Source of the DNA: Nocardioidaceae bacterium
Lineage (GTDB): Bacteria > Actinomycetota > Actinomycetes > Propionibacteriales > Nocardioidaceae
DNA: 64,000 nucleotides
Reading direction: 5' to 3'
Assembly (NCBI GenBank): GCA_017744365.1
Contig: JAGIBL010000001.1
Location: 1,113,416-1,177,415 of the forward strand
Under the pieces are notes generated by a model. It worked only from the letters and a program-made list of their open reading frames with translations. It made no database searches and was not told the DNA's origin. Shown in pieces: positions 7,911 through 14,976 of this stretch; position 1 is the first letter of the stretch; every line of letters starts with the position of its first letter. Position numbers and translations under genes: made by a program.

Positions 7911-10900
7911 TCAGCAGACCCCGAAGATGCCACCCAGGAAGTCCGGGTCGGGCAGGTTGTTGATCGCGTAGACCAGGCTCGGGGTCGGGCTGTCGCCACA
8001 GGTGAAGGAGCCGCCGGTGGCGATGTCCGCGGTCGGCGGGATCGCGTCGTAGTGCAGGAAGAAGAACAGGTTGTGGAACGCCAGGAACCCACCCGGCGAC
8101 GGCATGTTCAGGTCGACCTTCGGGTCGGGGAAGATGTCGCCGTCCCCGTCGAAGTAGCGCACCCGCCCGGTCAGGTGGTCACCCTCGCTCGGTGAGCCCG
8201 GACCGTGCGTGTTCGCCGCCGCCCACACCCGGCCGCACGCGACGTCGCAGCCGTCGTCGTGCGAGCTGAACGCCGCCTCGACCGTCTTGAACGAGAGGTT
8301 GTCGATGGCGATGCGCACCCGGTTCTGGCCGAAGTCGGCGCAGTTGCCGGCATTGCTCGTCTCCGGGCAGACCAGCCCGTTGACCACCACCGGCGTGCTC
8401 GGCACGTTGCCCGCCAGGTTCCGCGGGAAGAAGTGCATCGCGAAGTCCGGGTCGAAGACGGTCCGGCCGGTCGCCGTGGCGGGCACGTACGACGGCTTGC
8501 AGATCGGCCCGATGGTGGTGGCCAGGCACACGTCCAGCGAGGCCGGGATGTGCTTGATCGAGGTGTCCAGGTAGGCGTTCCCGATCGACCCGGTCAGGGT
8601 GATCTCGTCGATCGAGCCGTCCCCGGTGGCCAGCCCCGGCGTCACCTGGTAGCTGGCCGTGACACCGCTCTGGCCCTCGGTCGCGACCTCCAGCGGGTTG
8701 ATGTCGATGGTGGCCGGCTGCGGGTCGGAGATCGTCCCGTGCAGGTCGATGTCACCGGTGACCACCTTGTAGTCCAGTGGCGCGTTCGAGATGTCGTAGG
8801 ACAGGTGGATGGGGTCGGCGCCGGTGCCGAACTCGGCGTTGCCGATGCCCAGCAGGTTCGCGACGACGTGCTGCCCGTCGACGAACTCCAGCCGCTGCCG
8901 GGTCGCGTCGACCGCGGCCTTGCTGCCACCCCAGGCCTGGGCGTAGACCCGGCCGATGTGGTCACCGTGCGCGTCGAAGGTCGCGTTGCCGGTGCCCTGC
9001 GGCAGGGTCAGCGTCAGGTGGCTGGGCAGGTGCTCGATCCGGGCCTCGAAGTTCGGCATCCCCGCCGGTGCGGTCAGGCCGCCGCCGCTGGCCTGGATCG
9101 TGGCGATCGCCTCGCCGTGGCTGTCGAAGTCGACCACCGTGCTGCCACCGGCTCCCGGCTTCAGCGAGAAGGTCAGGTGGGCCGGCAGCGAGTCGACGGT
9201 GCCGTCGAAGGTGACCCCGTTGGTGGCGCCCTTGACGGTCAGGAACTGCGCGCCGGCGGTGACCAGGTCGGCCACGACCGGGTCGCCCTGGAAGCTGACC
9301 GAGGTCAGCCCGCCGATGCGCAGGAAGGCGCGGTACAGCGAGGGCGTGTCCTCGTACGACGCCGCCGCACCCGAGATCGCCGGGGCGGCGCTGCCGTCGC
9401 TGGCCAGCAGGGTGATGTCGCCGAGCGGGTTGCTCGCACTCGCGGACATCGCGCCGTTCTGCTGCTTGACGTCGATGGTCTCCTCGGCGGGCAGGTGCTC
9501 GAGCGTCGCCTCCAGCCGCTTGACGCGGGTGAAGAACGGCGTCGGCCGGGTCGCCTTGAGGAAGATCTTGTCGATCCCGGTGCCATGCCCGTCGAAGGTC
9601 ACCTTGCCGTTGGTGATGTCGGCCGAGATGGTCGTCCTGGCCGGCAGGTTGGACAGGTAGCCCTCGACGTGGGTGGTGGAGGTGTCGTCGTCCGCGGTGA
9701 ACGGGAACAATCCCGGTGCGGTCGCGAACTGCAGGTCACCGCCGTACGGCTCGGAGGAGTTGAACGAGGCGGACTTGAAGTCGAGCACCTGCAGCGCCGC
9801 GGTGAACTTCGACGCTGTGGTGCGGTGGTAGCGCGCGAACGGCGTGGTCGCCGGGTCGAGCGCGTCGACGTCGGAGCCCTTGGCGAACCGCGCCTGGATC
9901 CGGTCGATCTTGCCGTCGCCGGCACCGACCGAGGTCTTGTCGCCGGCCTGCTCGAACTCCAGGTGCGTCGGGATGCCCCAGGCGTCCAGCGCGGCCGCGG
10001 TCGCGATGGCGCTGCCGACCTTGTCCTCGTACTTCCCGGTCAGCTTGGCGATCGGTGCCGAGGCGTCGTACGTGACCTTCTCCTGGCCACCGGCGCCGGT
10101 GGTGTGCACCACGTCGATCGAGGAGGGCAGCTGGTCGGCGGTCAGGTCGACCTTCTGCCGCCGGCCCGGCGTGACCACGCCGACCTCGGCGGTCAGCTTG
10201 GACGGCGTGCTCGTGGTGATGAACTCCTGGCGGCTCTGCGCCGCCTTGATCCGTGTGCTGAACGTGGCCGGCACCGGGCTGAAGTTGGCGGCGCCGCGGT
10301 AGATCGTGTCCGGAGCATCCGGGTTGGCGCCGGAGAACATCTCGCCGACCGTGGTCAGCGAGGACGGCGGCGTGTGCGTCTTCAGGTCCAGGCCGAGGTC
10401 GACGCCGGCCGAGGAGATGCCGAGCACGCTGAGCCGGGCCTGCCACTGCTTCGCGGTGCCGGCCGGGGTGCCGTCGGGGCCGAAGCCGACGTAGCTGTTC
10501 GGCGCGGCCGGGTTGATCGCGATCGCCTCGATGCTGACCTTGTTGGCGGCGGGGTAGAAGAGCCCGCGCTGGATCAGCAGCGTGATCCCGTTGAGGGTCA
10601 GGTTCGGCGAGAGCGTGCCGGTGAAGTCGGGGATGCCGTTGCCGTCCACGTCGATGAGGGTCGGCACGCCGGCGAGCGCCTTGGTGTAGCGGACCACCGG
10701 GGGACCGCTGGGCGGGACGTACGTCGTGCGGTAGACGTAGCCGAGGACGTTGATCGAGCACACCAGCGGCGGCAGCGCGTCCACCAGCGGGCCGACGCCC
10801 GGGATGTTCGTGGTGGTGTCGGCGACCGTGGTGACCACCGGGCAGAGGATCTTCTGCAGCAGGTTGGTCGCGGAGCCGCCGAAGGCCTGGCTCAGGCCAC

Positions 10901-11072
10901 CGGTCCCTCCGCCTCCGCCGCCGCCTCCGGTCCCGAGGTGCAGGTCGATGTTGACCGACGCGGAGATGTCGATGTCGAGCTGGTCGGCCTGGGCCGTCGG
11001 CAGCGACACCGCCGTCACTGCGGCAGTAGTGGCGACGGCCACCAGGGCACGTCGAAAGGTCTTCCCGAGCAT
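7911..11072 (-). CDS. large secreted repeat protein of unknown function
   Basis: A 1053-residue exported protein. Residues 1-30 are a signal peptide ending AQAD, followed by a glycine run at 49-58. DVDGNGIPD at 141-149 resembles a calcium-binding Asp loop as in dockerins and thrombospondin type 3 repeats. From about residue 330 onward at least seven diverged beta-rich units recur, each opening with a leucine-proline turn (DQLPSSIDV, SNLPARTTI, EHLPAEETI, DSLPAHLTF, EHLPSHLTL, KHIPASLDV). Three of them continue to an FDxHG turn and a short strand. The C-terminus carries a cluster of cysteines likely to form disulfides. I know no named family. The start at 11072 follows GGGGGTGAG. A surface or matrix role is inference. 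Confidence 0.8.
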   Translation of the reverse strand: MLGKTFRRALVAVATTAAVTAVSLPTAQADQLDIDISASVNIDLHLGTGGGGGGGGTGGLSQAFGGSATNLLQKILCPVVTTVADTTTNIPGVGPLVDALPPLVCSINVLGYVYRTTYVPPSGPPVVRYTKALAGVPTLIDVDGNGIPDFTGTLSPNLTLNGITLLIQRGLFYPAANKVSIEAIAINPAAPNSYVGFGPDGTPAGTAKQWQARLSVLGISSAGVDLGLDLKTHTPPSSLTTVGEMFSGANPDAPDTIYRGAANFSPVPATFSTRIKAAQSRQEFITTSTPSKLTAEVGVVTPGRRQKVDLTADQLPSSIDVVHTTGAGGQEKVTYDASAPIAKLTGKYEDKVGSAIATAAALDAWGIPTHLEFEQAGDKTSVGAGDGKIDRIQARFAKGSDVDALDPATTPFARYHRTTASKFTAALQVLDFKSASFNSSEPYGGDLQFATAPGLFPFTADDDTSTTHVEGYLSNLPARTTISADITNGKVTFDGHGTGIDKIFLKATRPTPFFTRVKRLEATLEHLPAEETIDVKQQNGAMSASASNPLGDITLLASDGSAAPAISGAAASYEDTPSLYRAFLRIGGLTSVSFQGDPVVADLVTAGAQFLTVKGATNGVTFDGTVDSLPAHLTFSLKPGAGGSTVVDFDSHGEAIATIQASGGGLTAPAGMPNFEARIEHLPSHLTLTLPQGTGNATFDAHGDHIGRVYAQAWGGSKAAVDATRQRLEFVDGQHVVANLLGIGNAEFGTGADPIHLSYDISNAPLDYKVVTGDIDLHGTISDPQPATIDINPLEVATEGQSGVTASYQVTPGLATGDGSIDEITLTGSIGNAYLDTSIKHIPASLDVCLATTIGPICKPSYVPATATGRTVFDPDFAMHFFPRNLAGNVPSTPVVVNGLVCPETSNAGNCADFGQNRVRIAIDNLSFKTVEAAFSSHDDGCDVACGRVWAAANTHGPGSPSEGDHLTGRVRYFDGDGDIFPDPKVDLNMPSPGGFLAFHNLFFFLHYDAIPPTADIATGGSFTCGDSPTPSLVYAINNLPDPDFLGGIFGVC

Positions 11073-11337
11073 GGCGCTCACCCCCCGGCTGGGTGCATCA
11101 GCCGTGTAGTTCCCGATGACACTCACTGAAGAGGACAGCCCGTCCCCATGTGATACGCACGTGATGCGCCCGAAAGCGCAGAAACCCCGTTCTCTTCGCA
11201 AGGTAGGCGGACTGTCAAGAGGATCTTCGTCTCGAAAATGACGAAAACGGGGCGAACGGGCGCAGAACTCGTCGGCCATATCCGAACCACCCGATCTTGC
11301 TAGAGACGGGGCCGGGGCCCGGCTCCACCATCGACCC
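11073..11337. other. divergent intergenic region, 265 bases
   Basis: Separates the start of the secreted repeat protein from that of the membrane protein on the other strand. It is lower in GC than its surroundings and contains a reverse-strand TTGACA (around 11215) without a convincing -10 partner. A broken inverted repeat (CCCCGTT and AACGGGG about 60 bases apart) is present. I see no gene or RNA in it. Confidence 0.5.
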
Positions 11338-12636
11338 ATGTTGTCCCGCTGTGTCTGCGCTCTCGGCCTCGTCCTCGCCGGTCTCTGCCTGGGAGCGGGC
11401 CCGGCGGACGCGGAGAGCACCGACGGCGGCCTCCTGGTCGTCGACGGGACCACGGTCAAGGCGAGCGAGGCCGACGACGGCGGCTACGAGGCCACGGTCA
11501 CCCTCATCAACACCGGCACGGCGCCGGTCACGATCGAGGGCGTGACCGTGCCCGGCTGCACCACTGACGTCAAGGACGGCACCGTGGCGGGACTGCAGTC
11601 GGCCGAGGTGAAGCTCGAGCTCGACGAGGCCTGCTTCAAGGACGCCGCCAAGGTCAAGGCCACGCTGGGCGAGGGGCTGCCGGCCGTGACCGTGACGAAG
11701 CCGGCGGGCGGCTCGGACTGGAAGCCGCTGTGGATCGGCGTGCTCGCCGGCCTCGCCCTCGGGGTCGCGGTGTGGTTCGCCGGCCAGCACATGGTGGGCA
11801 AGGTCGACAAGCTGCGGAAGCAGGCCCCCGAGGACGCCGCGGACCGCCAGGCCAAGTACGAGAAGCTCAAGAACCTCGTCAGCGTGCGGGTGGCCGCGCT
11901 GAACCCGAGCGACCCGCAGATCCTGCAGTGGAAGCCGACCCTGCCGCTGCCCACGGACGACTTCGGCATGGACTCGGAGATCAAGGGCCTGGAGGCGGGC
12001 TGGTCGTTCAAGGACTCCTGGGCCGCGAACCTCACCGTCGCCACCACGGCGCTGGTCGCCCTGGTCAACAGCGCCGACACGCTGAAGGCCGTGCTGGGGG
12101 AGGAGCCCAAGGCGGCCCTCGGGGTGATGACCGTCGCCGGCCTGCTCAGCGCCCTGGTGATCGCGGTGGCCAACACCGTCGCCAAGCTGGTCGGGGACAG
12201 CACGGCCCAGGTCACCGCGAAGGGCTTGGTCCTCTCGACGTCGATGGTGGTCTTCGCGGCCGGGCTCCAGACCGTGACGGTGGGTGGCTCGGCGCTGTCC
12301 CTGGTGGACGGGGTCGTCCTGGGCGGGGTCGTCGTCGTGATCGCCCTGGCGGTCGTGGTCGTCCTGCTCTGGTACGCCTTCCGCAGCCTGTGGGGCACGC
12401 TCGCCACGGGTGCCGACGACCCCGTGCCCGCCCTCCCGGCCGATGCCCTGACCGCGTGGGAAGCCGAGCAGCCGTGGCAGAAGGCGATCGTCCACGACCG
12501 CATCGTGACCCTGTACGCGCGGTGGCTGACCGACGTCCCGGCGACGGCAACGGCGGAGCCGGCCTACCCCTGGCCGCCGCGCACCTCGCCCGGGGACGAG
12601 CCGCTGTTCTTGCCGCGCAGGTCCTCCCTCATCTGA
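11338..12636 (+). CDS. membrane protein with exported N-terminal domain
   Basis: A 432-residue protein I do not recognise. A signal peptide (1-26) leads to an exported beta-sandwich-like region of about 95 residues with two cysteines (PGCTTDV and EACF). Then come a membrane helix at about 130-148, a cytoplasmic stretch rich in Lys/Glu, a second hydrophobic block of about four helices (about 230-345) and a Pro-rich cytoplasmic tail. This arrangement suggests a surface sensor or anchor. It is divergent from the large secreted repeat protein and may work with it; that is inference. Confidence 0.75.
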   Translation: MLSRCVCALGLVLAGLCLGAGPADAESTDGGLLVVDGTTVKASEADDGGYEATVTLINTGTAPVTIEGVTVPGCTTDVKDGTVAGLQSAEVKLELDEACFKDAAKVKATLGEGLPAVTVTKPAGGSDWKPLWIGVLAGLALGVAVWFAGQHMVGKVDKLRKQAPEDAADRQAKYEKLKNLVSVRVAALNPSDPQILQWKPTLPLPTDDFGMDSEIKGLEAGWSFKDSWAANLTVATTALVALVNSADTLKAVLGEEPKAALGVMTVAGLLSALVIAVANTVAKLVGDSTAQVTAKGLVLSTSMVVFAAGLQTVTVGGSALSLVDGVVLGGVVVVIALAVVVVLLWYAFRSLWGTLATGADDPVPALPADALTAWEAEQPWQKAIVHDRIVTLYARWLTDVPATATAEPAYPWPPRTSPGDEPLFLPRRSSLI

Positions 12637-12750: not shown

Positions 12751-13695
12751 ATGTTCCGTCGTCTTCTCCTTCTCGGGCTCGTCCTCCTCGGTCTCGTCGC
12801 CGCGCCCGCCGCCGCGCCCGCCGCCGCGGCACCGTTCCCGAGCTCGGTCCCGCTCCCGGTCGACTTCCAGCCCGAGGGCATCGCCGTCGGGGCCGGCTCG
12901 ACGTTCTACGCCGGATCGCTGCGCAGCGGTGACATCTACCGCGGCGACCTGCGCACCGGCCAGGGCGCCGTCTTCGTGCACGCTCCCGCGGGCCGGGCCG
13001 CGGTCGGCCTCAAGGTCGACCAGGCGCACCAGCTGCTGTTCGTCGCCGGCGGCGGCACCGGCAAGGCCTTCGTGTACGACGCCCGCACCGGCGCCCCGGT
13101 GGCGTCCTACGACTTCGGCGGCTCGTTCCTCAACGACGTCGCGATCGCCGGCGACGGCGCCTACTTCACCGAGACCTTCGGGCCGGTGCTCTACAAGATC
13201 CCGATCTCGCCCAGCGGGGCCCTCGGGACGGGTTCGACGCTGGCGCTGACGGGGCCCGGAGCCACGACGGTGCCGAACGACTTCAACCTCAACGGCATCC
13301 AGGCGACCCCGGACGGCTCGACGCTCATCGTGGGCAACACCTCGCTCGGCAAGCTGTTCACCGTCGATCCGGCCACCGGCGCCACCGCGGAGATCCACGT
13401 GGACGGGATCATCCCCGGCACCCCGGACGGGCTGCTGCTCGCGGGACCGGACATGTGGGTGGTCGAGAACGGGGCCAACACCATCGTGCGGGTGCGGCTC
13501 GCCCCCGACCTGTCGAGCGGCACGATCACGAAGACGGTCACCGGCTCGCAGTTCCGGGTGCCGACCACGATGGCGAGGTTCGGTGACCGGCTGGCCGTGG
13601 TGAACGGCCGCTTCGACCTCGGCTTCCCGCCGCCGTTCGGACCCGGGGCACCTCCGGGGACGACCTTCGACGTGGCCGTGGTCCGGGCCGGCTGA
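12751..13695 (+). CDS. secreted SMP-30/NHL-like beta-propeller protein
   Basis: A 314-residue exported protein: signal peptide 1-27 (RRLLLLGLVLLGLVAAP), then repeated four-stranded blades with the turns FQPEGIAVGAG, NDVAIAGDG, NGIQATPDGSTLIVGN and GTPDGLLLAG. This is the blade pattern of SMP-30/gluconolactonase-type propellers. Asn and Asp in these turns resemble the metal site of that family, so a lactonase or binding role outside the cell is possible. The gene starts 114 bases after the previous gene and ends 10 bases from a convergent one. Confidence 0.8.
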   Translation: MFRRLLLLGLVLLGLVAAPAAAPAAAAPFPSSVPLPVDFQPEGIAVGAGSTFYAGSLRSGDIYRGDLRTGQGAVFVHAPAGRAAVGLKVDQAHQLLFVAGGGTGKAFVYDARTGAPVASYDFGGSFLNDVAIAGDGAYFTETFGPVLYKIPISPSGALGTGSTLALTGPGATTVPNDFNLNGIQATPDGSTLIVGNTSLGKLFTVDPATGATAEIHVDGIIPGTPDGLLLAGPDMWVVENGANTIVRVRLAPDLSSGTITKTVTGSQFRVPTTMARFGDRLAVVNGRFDLGFPPPFGPGAPPGTTFDVAVVRAG

Positions 13696-13705
13696 CGCCT
13701 GCGGG

Positions 13706-14902
13706 TCAGTCGGTCACGCGCTCCCAGGAGAACGGCCCGAAGCTGGTCGCGGTCGCCGGGCCGTGCTGGCCCGGCGTGACCGTGAGGCGCAGGTACTCCA
13801 GCGGCGTGGTGCTGCCGTGCACCACGACCCGGTGGAAGTTCGGCACGTCGTACGACGGGTGCGACGGCCACGCGTCGGCGGCGCAGACGCCCTGGTCGCC
13901 GGTGCAGTCCGATCCCTCGGCGAGCGGGTTGTCCGAGCGGTAGACGTGCGAGTCGCCGTTGAGCAGCAGCACGGGCTTGCCGAGGTCGCTCGTGCGGCCG
14001 GCGAGCTTCGCGACGAAGGGCTCGTAGCTGCTCAGGTGGGCGTTGGTGGCGGCGCCGTCCAGGTCCCACATGTCCGCCTGCGCGATCACGACCACGCCTT
14101 GGGCGTCCTGCGCGGCCGCGGTGTCGAAGGCGCGGTCCAGCCAGCGCAGGTCGGCGGCGGTGCGCTCGGCGGCCTCGGTCGTCTGCTCCGCGGTCACCGG
14201 GGCGCCGTACCAGGGGTCCGCGTCGTTGTTCGAACCGCCGGGCAGGTTGATCGTCACGAAGACAACGCCCTTGCGCTGCCACATCACGTTCTCGACGTAC
14301 TGACCGTCGGCCGGGTGCGCACCGTTGTCGACCTCGGCCTGGGAGAGCACGTCGAGGTCACCGCTGCCGAGGGTGCCGCCGGGGTGCGGGAAGAAGACCG
14401 ACCGGATCAGCGCGAGGTTCGCGACCGGGTTCCCCCGGGCGTAGCTCACCGGCTGGCCGTCGGCGCCGAGCACGTACTTGATGGTGCCCGTGCCGGCGTC
14501 GTACGCCCCGCCGCCCTCCTTCTTCTTGTGGCAGTCCGCCCACTCGTTGTCGCCCGGGGTGTAGACCATCGGGTCGGCGAAGGTGCTCCACAGCGCCGCG
14601 ATCTGGCGGTCGTAGGCCTCGGTGCAGTACTGGCTGCCCGAGTGGATGTCGCCGACGTGCACGATCCCGCTGACTGCCGGATCGGCGTTGACCTTCGCGA
14701 TGAAGCCGGGGGTGGCGTCCGTCTCGCTGGTGTCCGTCGGGGAGGTCCCGTACGGCGCATCGCCGTAGACGGCGTAGCTGAAGGACCGGTTCGAGCTTCC
14801 GGAGTCGGCCTGGGCGGCGAGCTGGGGGACCAGGGCGGCGACCAGCGCGGTCCCGGTCAGGGCGACGACGGCGAGGGCACGGGGGCGAGCAGACGAGGAC
14901 AT
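13706..14902 (-). CDS. secreted metallophosphoesterase
   Basis: A 398-residue exported phosphoesterase of the calcineurin-like fold. The signal peptide spans about 1-33. Metal-ligand motifs appear in order: YGDAPYG, VHVGDIHSG, TPGDNEW and, late, LNGDSHVYRSD, so a bimetal centre is probable. The usual N-terminal DxH is replaced by YGDAPY, as in some secreted relatives. Two to three cysteine pairs are likely disulfides. A stable hairpin lies just upstream of the start in the 5' leader. The substrate is unknown. Confidence 0.83.
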   Translation of the reverse strand: MSSSARPRALAVVALTGTALVAALVPQLAAQADSGSSNRSFSYAVYGDAPYGTSPTDTSETDATPGFIAKVNADPAVSGIVHVGDIHSGSQYCTEAYDRQIAALWSTFADPMVYTPGDNEWADCHKKKEGGGAYDAGTGTIKYVLGADGQPVSYARGNPVANLALIRSVFFPHPGGTLGSGDLDVLSQAEVDNGAHPADGQYVENVMWQRKGVVFVTINLPGGSNNDADPWYGAPVTAEQTTEAAERTAADLRWLDRAFDTAAAQDAQGVVVIAQADMWDLDGAATNAHLSSYEPFVAKLAGRTSDLGKPVLLLNGDSHVYRSDNPLAEGSDCTGDQGVCAADAWPSHPSYDVPNFHRVVVHGSTTPLEYLRLTVTPGQHGPATATSFGPFSWERVTD

Positions 14903-14915
14903 GGCGCCACCCTGG

Positions 14916-14935
14916 CGGGCGGGCATGCCCGCCCG
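14916..14935. other. GC-rich hairpin upstream of the phosphoesterase gene
   Basis: A 9-base-pair inverted repeat centred on CATG (CGGGCGGGC paired with GCCCGCCCG) sits 14-33 bases upstream of the ATG at 14902. It is flanked by CTGG and CCAG, which can also pair. It may fold in the 5' leader and limit translation. Confidence 0.5.
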
Positions 14936-14976
14936 GGCCAGCACGGACTGAATTGCTGGTGAACAGGCGCCGAGGG

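Follow-up and report, generated by a model that had tools for sequence, protein, structure and literature searches.

A large, probably exported all-beta repeat protein of a Nocardioidaceae bacterium, from a family without a name in the libraries searched

The DNA considered here is a window of 64,000 nucleotides from a Nocardioidaceae bacterium (positions 1,113,416 to 1,177,415 of contig JAGIBL010000001.1), and the subject is one gene within it, at 7911-11072 on the minus strand. From its reading frame, a genome search and a full-length model, the gene encodes a probably exported, all-beta repeat protein of 1053 residues, and none of the protein-family libraries searched has a name for its family. 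The protein is tentatively read as a released extracellular beta rod whose hydrophobic side is probably a trough for a hydrophobic ligand. It would be secreted through Sec, released without an anchor, and folded as one long antiparallel beta meander, in the order of an N-module (with a cysteine pair and a cation-type loop), three linker-free super-repeats and a cysteine-rich C-terminal cap. Because alternate residues of nearly every predicted strand are hydrophobic, the rod would have one oily side, and this side would form a trough in which a hydrophobic ligand or surface (a lipid, a lipoglycan tail or similar) would be held outside the cell. What the analysis shows directly is a conserved reading frame, the repeat, the existence of a family, the cysteines of the caps, the predicted strands and the alternation along them. 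Below, L and G numbers are our labels for loci and genomes, G000 being the window's own genome.

The repeat is the most prominent feature of the protein. A preliminary description, made from the letters of the window, had reported at least seven units that begin with an LP turn, three of which continue to an FDxHG turn. Both motifs occur beyond chance. The pattern [LIV]P[AS] is found nine times after residue 30, against a shuffled mean of 2.8 (nine was reached in 3 of 2000 shuffles), and FDxHG exactly three times, at residues 493, 649 and 699, against a shuffled mean of 0.011 and a maximum of 1 in 5000 shuffles. The repetition is real, but each unit counted in that description is part of a larger one. 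Self-comparison of a profile of the protein gave offsets of 51-53, 102, 153-157, 206, 314 and 366 residues, with a best score of 39.5 against a maximum of 25.3 among 20 column shuffles. An iterated hidden Markov model (HMM) defined a super-repeat of about 155 residues in three copies, at residues 315-455 (9708-10130), 476-611 (9240-9647) and 629-769 (8766-9188), all on the minus strand. Its consensus starts LPASLDLGLDPDAGKLTYDASAPIAKITADATD, and a second LP turn follows about 51 residues further on, each super-repeat holding two. The proposal of a diverged, beta-rich repeat was borne out by the self-comparison, by the iterated HMM and by a confident all-beta model of the second and third copies.

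The three units of the window protein share 59-71% identity with their counterparts in the close orthologues L014 and L015 and about 23% with their sisters. Position-wise agreement is lower in L017 (58 and 47%) and in L018 (66, 51 and 22%), and is absent for L019. Because each unit is closer to its orthologous unit than to its sister units, the three distinct units are, by this comparison, old, though their number is not strictly fixed: the L018 orthologue (L018:7918-11568, from a Propionibacteriales metagenome-assembled genome, MAG) has an extra repeat stretch and totals 1216 residues. Across the relatives the repeat count ranges from 2 to 13, partial matches left out. The best within-array identities of 60-72% in L045, L046, L076 and L080 are a sign of probable later duplication there.

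These numbers bear on a plain surface rod, spacer or adhesin, which comes close behind the trough reading and is nearly as likely. Such a protein would be a stiff stalk with its hydrophobic faces packed together, the N-module or C-terminal cap would bind, and the number of repeats would set the reach. The variable repeat number and the high within-array identities fit this, as do the presence of six loci in a single genome (G914) and the patchy distribution of the family. The closeness of each unit to its counterpart rather than its sisters argues instead for a tuned structure and not a freely slipping spacer, although the extra unit in L018, from the same genus, counters that argument. The window protein also has no match to the Ig (immunoglobulin), cadherin or invasin families of Pfam, and no wall or membrane anchor was found in it.

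The fold was predicted from residues 476-785, which span two super-repeats, with AlphaFold2 and an alignment (A4) of 60 repeat-pair rows. The second window row of A4 (units 1-2) shows 100% identity to the query and is therefore aligned through the shared unit 2 instead of each unit with its counterpart; the corresponding L014 and L015 rows (65%) look like the same shared-unit alignment. An alignment of 48 repeat triples (A3) had slipped in register, and the A4 pairs were folded instead. The resulting model has a predicted local distance difference test (pLDDT) of 92.6 and a predicted template modelling score (pTM) of 0.84. It holds 26 short strands in 310 residues, mostly in tight hairpins, with 19 of the 25 loops no longer than five residues, and the repeat border shows neither a break nor a low-confidence linker. 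A full-length AlphaFold2 model built from seven rows reached a pLDDT of 54.9 and was used for its all-beta character only.

In the two-repeat model a hydrophobic residue stands at every second position of nearly every strand. The difference in hydrophobicity between strand faces was 3.04, against a null mean of 1.58 and a maximum of 2.31 in 2000 shuffles; the oily face of each strand was picked from that strand's average, in real and shuffled strands alike. With faces picked in this way, Asp, Glu, Lys and Arg account for 7% of inner-face and 33% of outer-face residues. Conservation among orthologues is slightly higher at inner positions (0.72) than at outer ones (0.66). The trough shape, the binding of a ligand and any benefit to the cell would be further steps from these observations.

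The structure prediction that had been suggested for the repeats thus gave a fold that is confident in prediction and has no clear solved match. Foldseek searches of viral models with the two-repeat model returned nothing at or under 0.001. Readings as a beta-solenoid, a propeller or tandem Ig domains were set aside: these folds are common, a confident model of 310 residues should match them clearly, and the lists of matches hold no clear match to any fold. This is an argument, not a proof, as a family outside those lists may still be similar. The longest VIA-align alignments were to LPD-3, with 194 residues aligned (Z 4.8, root-mean-square deviation (rmsd) 8.0), and to ApoB100, with 188 (Z 3.8, rmsd 7.7). 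Vps13 also appeared among the rows, with 156 residues aligned (Z 3.1, rmsd 8.9), as did the TamB beta-taco, with 114 of 131 residues aligned (Z 3.4, rmsd 6.2). The remaining rows outside the membrane barrels include teneurins, a TCP10 domain, doublet-microtubule proteins and an Rhs protein. All rows have Z 5.3 or lower, a level at which the alignments may reflect a shared arrangement only.

Several results weigh against the trough. The same alternation would be expected of a beta roll or sandwich closed around a hydrophobic core, and two of the 26 strands (94-101 and 251-256) lack it. The best Foldseek match of the two-repeat model in PDB had an E of 0.14, and the mixed lists of structural matches also hold pores, lectins, antibodies and phosphorylases. 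No VIA-align row for this model exceeded Z 5.3, and most rows were membrane barrels, ranked above the lipid proteins; these are TOM40, VDAC, porins, TonB receptors and ushers, classed as barrels by their PDB titles. The poor full-length model had two Foldseek matches under 0.001, both to LRP2 (E 9.8e-5 and 1.7e-4), with TM-scores of 0.09 or less; they were given no weight. Because no structural match is strong, the trough draws on a weak analogy together with the alternation. The genomic surroundings do not help it either. No conserved lipid-metabolism neighbour was seen at the orthologue loci, and eight neighbours of relatives, chosen by eye at six loci, were scanned. Five of the eight have repeats of Ig/cadherin-like, RCC1 or RTX type, a finding that suits a surface role as well and adds to the case for a rod or adhesin. 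These five lie at L046, L047 and L019 (two) and near L028 (one). An open trough on the hydrophobic side would be a new way to handle lipids outside a one-membrane cell; with that side closed, the protein would still be a new kind of long beta rod.

The analogy in question is with the repeating beta-groove (RBG) lipid-transfer proteins (TamB, AsmA and VPS13-BLTP; LPD-3 also goes by the name BLTP1). Like them, the window protein is predicted to be a very long linker-free antiparallel meander with alternating hydrophobics, and its two-repeat model aligns to them weakly, at Z 3.1-4.8. Unlike them, it has a signal peptide with no anchor found, cysteine-bearing caps, a 155-residue period and no sequence or profile match to the group, and it comes from a host with one membrane; the envelope of Nocardioides has one membrane and is mycolate-free. 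A genuine bridge-like lipid conduit, as an extracellular counterpart of TamB, AsmA or VPS13 in a one-membrane bacterium, would explain the continuous amphipathic meander and the alignments to LPD-3, Vps13 and TamB. It is nonetheless improbable, as there is no second membrane to deliver to, no membrane anchor was found, and TamB and AsmA matches are absent from the window protein, five relatives and the genome. The genome search used TamB (PF04357) and AsmA (PF05170), for which 6 and 2 of 14 control genomes were positive, and hhalign against E. coli TamB gave a probability of 0.1% (a single TamB sequence, hence low power). The window protein has no Pfam match to Chorein.

The beta belts of ApoB-100 and vitellogenin are likewise extracellular amphipathic beta structures, as the predicted repeats would be. 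The ApoB100 alignment covers 188 residues of the two-repeat model, and the low-confidence full model has vitellogenin among the matches of its C-terminal part (Z 3.4). They differ from the window protein in repeat organisation and show no sequence similarity to it in PDB searches, and the lipid of the window protein is a putative one. Foldseek rows of the full-length model to ApoB100 and LPD-3 had E above 0.001 and carried no weight. OspA, variants of which were listed for the low-confidence full model, is also a repetitive single sheet of hairpins; it is a lipoprotein with a largely polar central sheet, unlike the window repeat with its one hydrophobic face and no lipobox found. The broadest form of the idea has actinobacteria with one membrane secreting a modular beta-groove protein whose length depends on its number of 155-residue repeats (2 to 13). 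Outside the cell this protein would carry lipids or other hydrophobic compounds, as an independently evolved analogue of bridge-like lipid-transfer proteins or apolipoprotein B. In that full form the idea is unlikely.

The repeats lie between two cysteine-bearing caps, which hold all ten cysteines of the protein. The C-terminal cap, at about residues 842-1053 (7914-8549, minus strand; alignment and cysteine positions), has eight of them and ends in Cys, as ...GIFGVC. In all 20 ORFs (open reading frames) of the family that reach a stop, the final Cys is at most six residues from the end. The N-module, at about residues 75-205 (10458-10850, minus strand; alignment and paralogue comparison), carries the pair Cys77 and Cys105, a VPTxxDVD motif and an FG.D motif. 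A Cys pair precedes the VPTxx[DN]VD motif in most relatives, L046 and L047 being without it. The caps may contain disulphides.

Within the N-module lies the DVDGNGIPD loop at residues 141-149 (10626-10652, minus strand; by sequence pattern), which the preliminary description had called calcium-like. Acidic or Asn ligands are present at positions 1, 3, 5 and 9, as expected of an EF-hand-type or FG-GAP-like loop, and no Pfam or NCBIfam model matched it. Counted by eye, the strict pattern [DN]x[DN]x[DN]xxx[DE] occurs in all four N-module (B) paralogues and in 13 of the 20 members of the family that have the N-module, one of these 13 being the window protein. L046 was left out of this count for a Ser at position 5, and L080, which has the strict pattern, was included. 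The claim holds for the pattern and less well for its conservation: of the five close orthologues (L014-L018), three have lost the loop (L014, L017 and L018), as have L019, L046, L047 and L048. It may be an ancestral, dispensable predicted cation site. A cation-dependent carbohydrate-binding or carbohydrate-degrading protein, with an active N-module and the repeats as accessory, would fit the frequency of the loop in the family, and residues of about 99-282 of the low-confidence full model align, if only weakly, with parts of polysaccharide lyases (Z 3.6-3.9, 92-101 residues). The pLDDT of that part is low, the loop is missing from those three orthologues, and no catalytic family of Pfam or NCBIfam matched the window protein; this alternative is quite improbable.

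The reading frame has an ATG start and 1053 codons plus a stop, with a run of six G a few bases 5' of the ATG. Secretion, as had been proposed, is supported by a Sec-type signal peptide read by eye at residues 1-30 (10983-11072, minus strand), with AQA before the proposed cut. Neither a lipobox nor an LPxTG wall-anchor motif was found in the window protein, and no C-terminal hydrophobic segment exceeded the threshold of a hydropathy scan (19-residue window, mean over 1.8). That scan is coarse and a weak test for anchors, since it flagged no segment at all and missed the signal peptide too. From its sequence, the protein is probably exported via Sec and would be released without an anchor. A run of eight glycines at residues 49-56 (10905-10928, minus strand) was confirmed in the translation, as was the position of the DVDGNGIPD loop; the run is absent from the aligned orthologues.

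That no named family would be recognised was also confirmed. The window protein had no match in Pfam at E of 1 or less and none in NCBIfam or PHROG; neither it nor the relatives scanned had a real match in these libraries or in PDB sequence searches. A clear match to an adhesin or enzyme family, which would have spoken against the description, did not turn up in the profile searches. A Pfam scan of five relatives gave just three unrelated matches, all below cut-off, and no Ig or cadherin domain. Tandem Ig/cadherin-like surface proteins (Big_9, Cadherin_4) are also large, secreted, beta-rich repeat proteins, and Ig/cadherin-domain genes lie near three relatives (L046, L047 and L019); unlike those proteins, the window protein has no Pfam match, and its two-repeat model has no linkers between units. 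Discarded as below cut-off or due to chance were NMT1_3, HMA, FB_lectin, colicin_Z_Cterm, SpheroidMoxCrtARhod, PRK01060.1-2, ZirU_fam (in the paralogue called B below), TetR_C_36 (in the facing neighbour) and designed proteins in PDB (E 0.18-0.53). None of the open-licence papers listed in literature searches concerns this family, as judged by titles and the beginnings of abstracts; one paper deals with bacterial Chorein-N and TULIP domains (PMC6791001).

Members of the family are about 800 to 2800 residues long, and some genomes hold several of them. Relatives are thinly spread, in a minority of Nocardioides/Marmoricola-type genomes, one Solirubrobacterales MAG and scattered Actinomycetota. 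A protein search of 149 genomes of the family Nocardioidaceae found matches in eight, the window's own included. Six have the full-length protein (G000; G053, Nocardioides marmorisolisilvae KIS18-7; the Marmoricola MAGs G101 and G107; the Propionibacteriales MAG G119; and G126), and G075 and G081 have only an N-module paralogue. A draw of 293 genomes of the order added G350 (Nocardioides sp. Root682). Profile A1 matched 7 of 396 genomes of the phylum; profile A2 matched 10 of 24 genomes of the genus, 4 of 394 of the window's class (the own genome included in each case) and 4 of 199 of the class of G489, G489 included. These counts are lower bounds, as the searches score only some candidates per genome, and they include N-module-only genomes such as G967, G992, G075, G081 and, with A1, G749. 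In G605 a short match lies within a 154-residue frame. No relative was found among IMG/VR viral contigs.

Five orthologues share 43-60% identity with the window protein in the alignment. The core profile was passed by 21 ORFs. Two of them are truncated, L082 by the end of its contig and the second L076 frame (L076:10839-13028) because it extends past its own; all the others have the super-repeats and the C-terminal cap. The four N-module paralogues (L020-L023) did not pass, and neither did L049, although the genome searches had reported them. Among the relatives, L028 from the Solirubrobacterales MAG has a frame of 2291 residues, and the largest frame, from the scattered Actinomycetota, has 2827. 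In a tree of the N-module (19 rows) the six close orthologues grouped at 100/100, and L019 of Nocardioides sp. Root682 fell among proteins of the class of G489 (90/92) on a long branch. This placement of L019:9034-12135 is a hint only of possible lateral transfer. In G914, of the same class as G489, the six family loci are L075-L077 and L080-L082, with two genes in tandem at L076.

Across a gap of 265 bases, correctly given in the preliminary description, the gene faces a divergent one at 11338-12636 on the plus strand. By Pfam scan, hydropathy and genome search, its product is a membrane protein of 432 residues without a family, with a signal peptide, an exported domain and four further hydrophobic segments. 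The suggestion that it anchors the window protein or works with it follows from its adjacency, divergent orientation and exported domain. In the 149 genomes, however, it matched only in G000, G096 (45% identity) and G063 (a weak match with a stop inside), and the search with the window protein matched neither G096 nor G063. None of the five other full-length carriers gave a match to the facing protein: G053, G101 and G107 are listed without one, and G119 and G126 are placed among the unlisted non-matches on the assumption that the same 149 genomes were drawn (G350 is outside the draw). A part for the facing gene in the system is not supported on present evidence, and the partnership is highly improbable.

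The flanks differ among the close orthologues, except for the near-identical pair L015/L016. The other three of the eight neighbours scanned were a periplasmic-type binding protein (L017), a penicillin amidase (L080) and one without a match (L028); a ninth, beside L014, had no match. Genomic context does not decide between the readings. An M23 peptidase gene lies near the window gene, and two further predicted exported proteins nearby (13706-14944 and 12751-13695) have no Pfam match at E 0.001. Antisense to the gene is an open frame of 974 residues (8205-11129, plus strand), expected from the high G+C content, in which no sign of coding was seen.

The window's genome holds two further relatives. 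Paralogue B (L020:5562-10790, contig C8) is a 1742-residue frame with only the N-module in common with the window protein. The first part of the module is shared. Paralogue B also has a Rax2 beta-propeller match (E 1.4e-9), DUF5122 below cut-off and further repeats that look Ig-like by eye, and therefore the N-module occurs in more than one architecture. Relative C (L102:5450-10729, contig C3) is a 1760-residue ORF without a Pfam or NCBIfam match, in which weaker repeat matches follow a Cys-containing, apparently helical N-terminal stretch. It has counterparts in four genus members (G053, G066, G087 and G110). A gene that we take to be fumarate-hydratase-like (class I, judging by its start) lies beside or one ORF from L102, L104, L105 and L106, and was not seen in L103. 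L049, from a distant actinobacterium, has an N-terminal stretch that is similar by eye to that of relative C.

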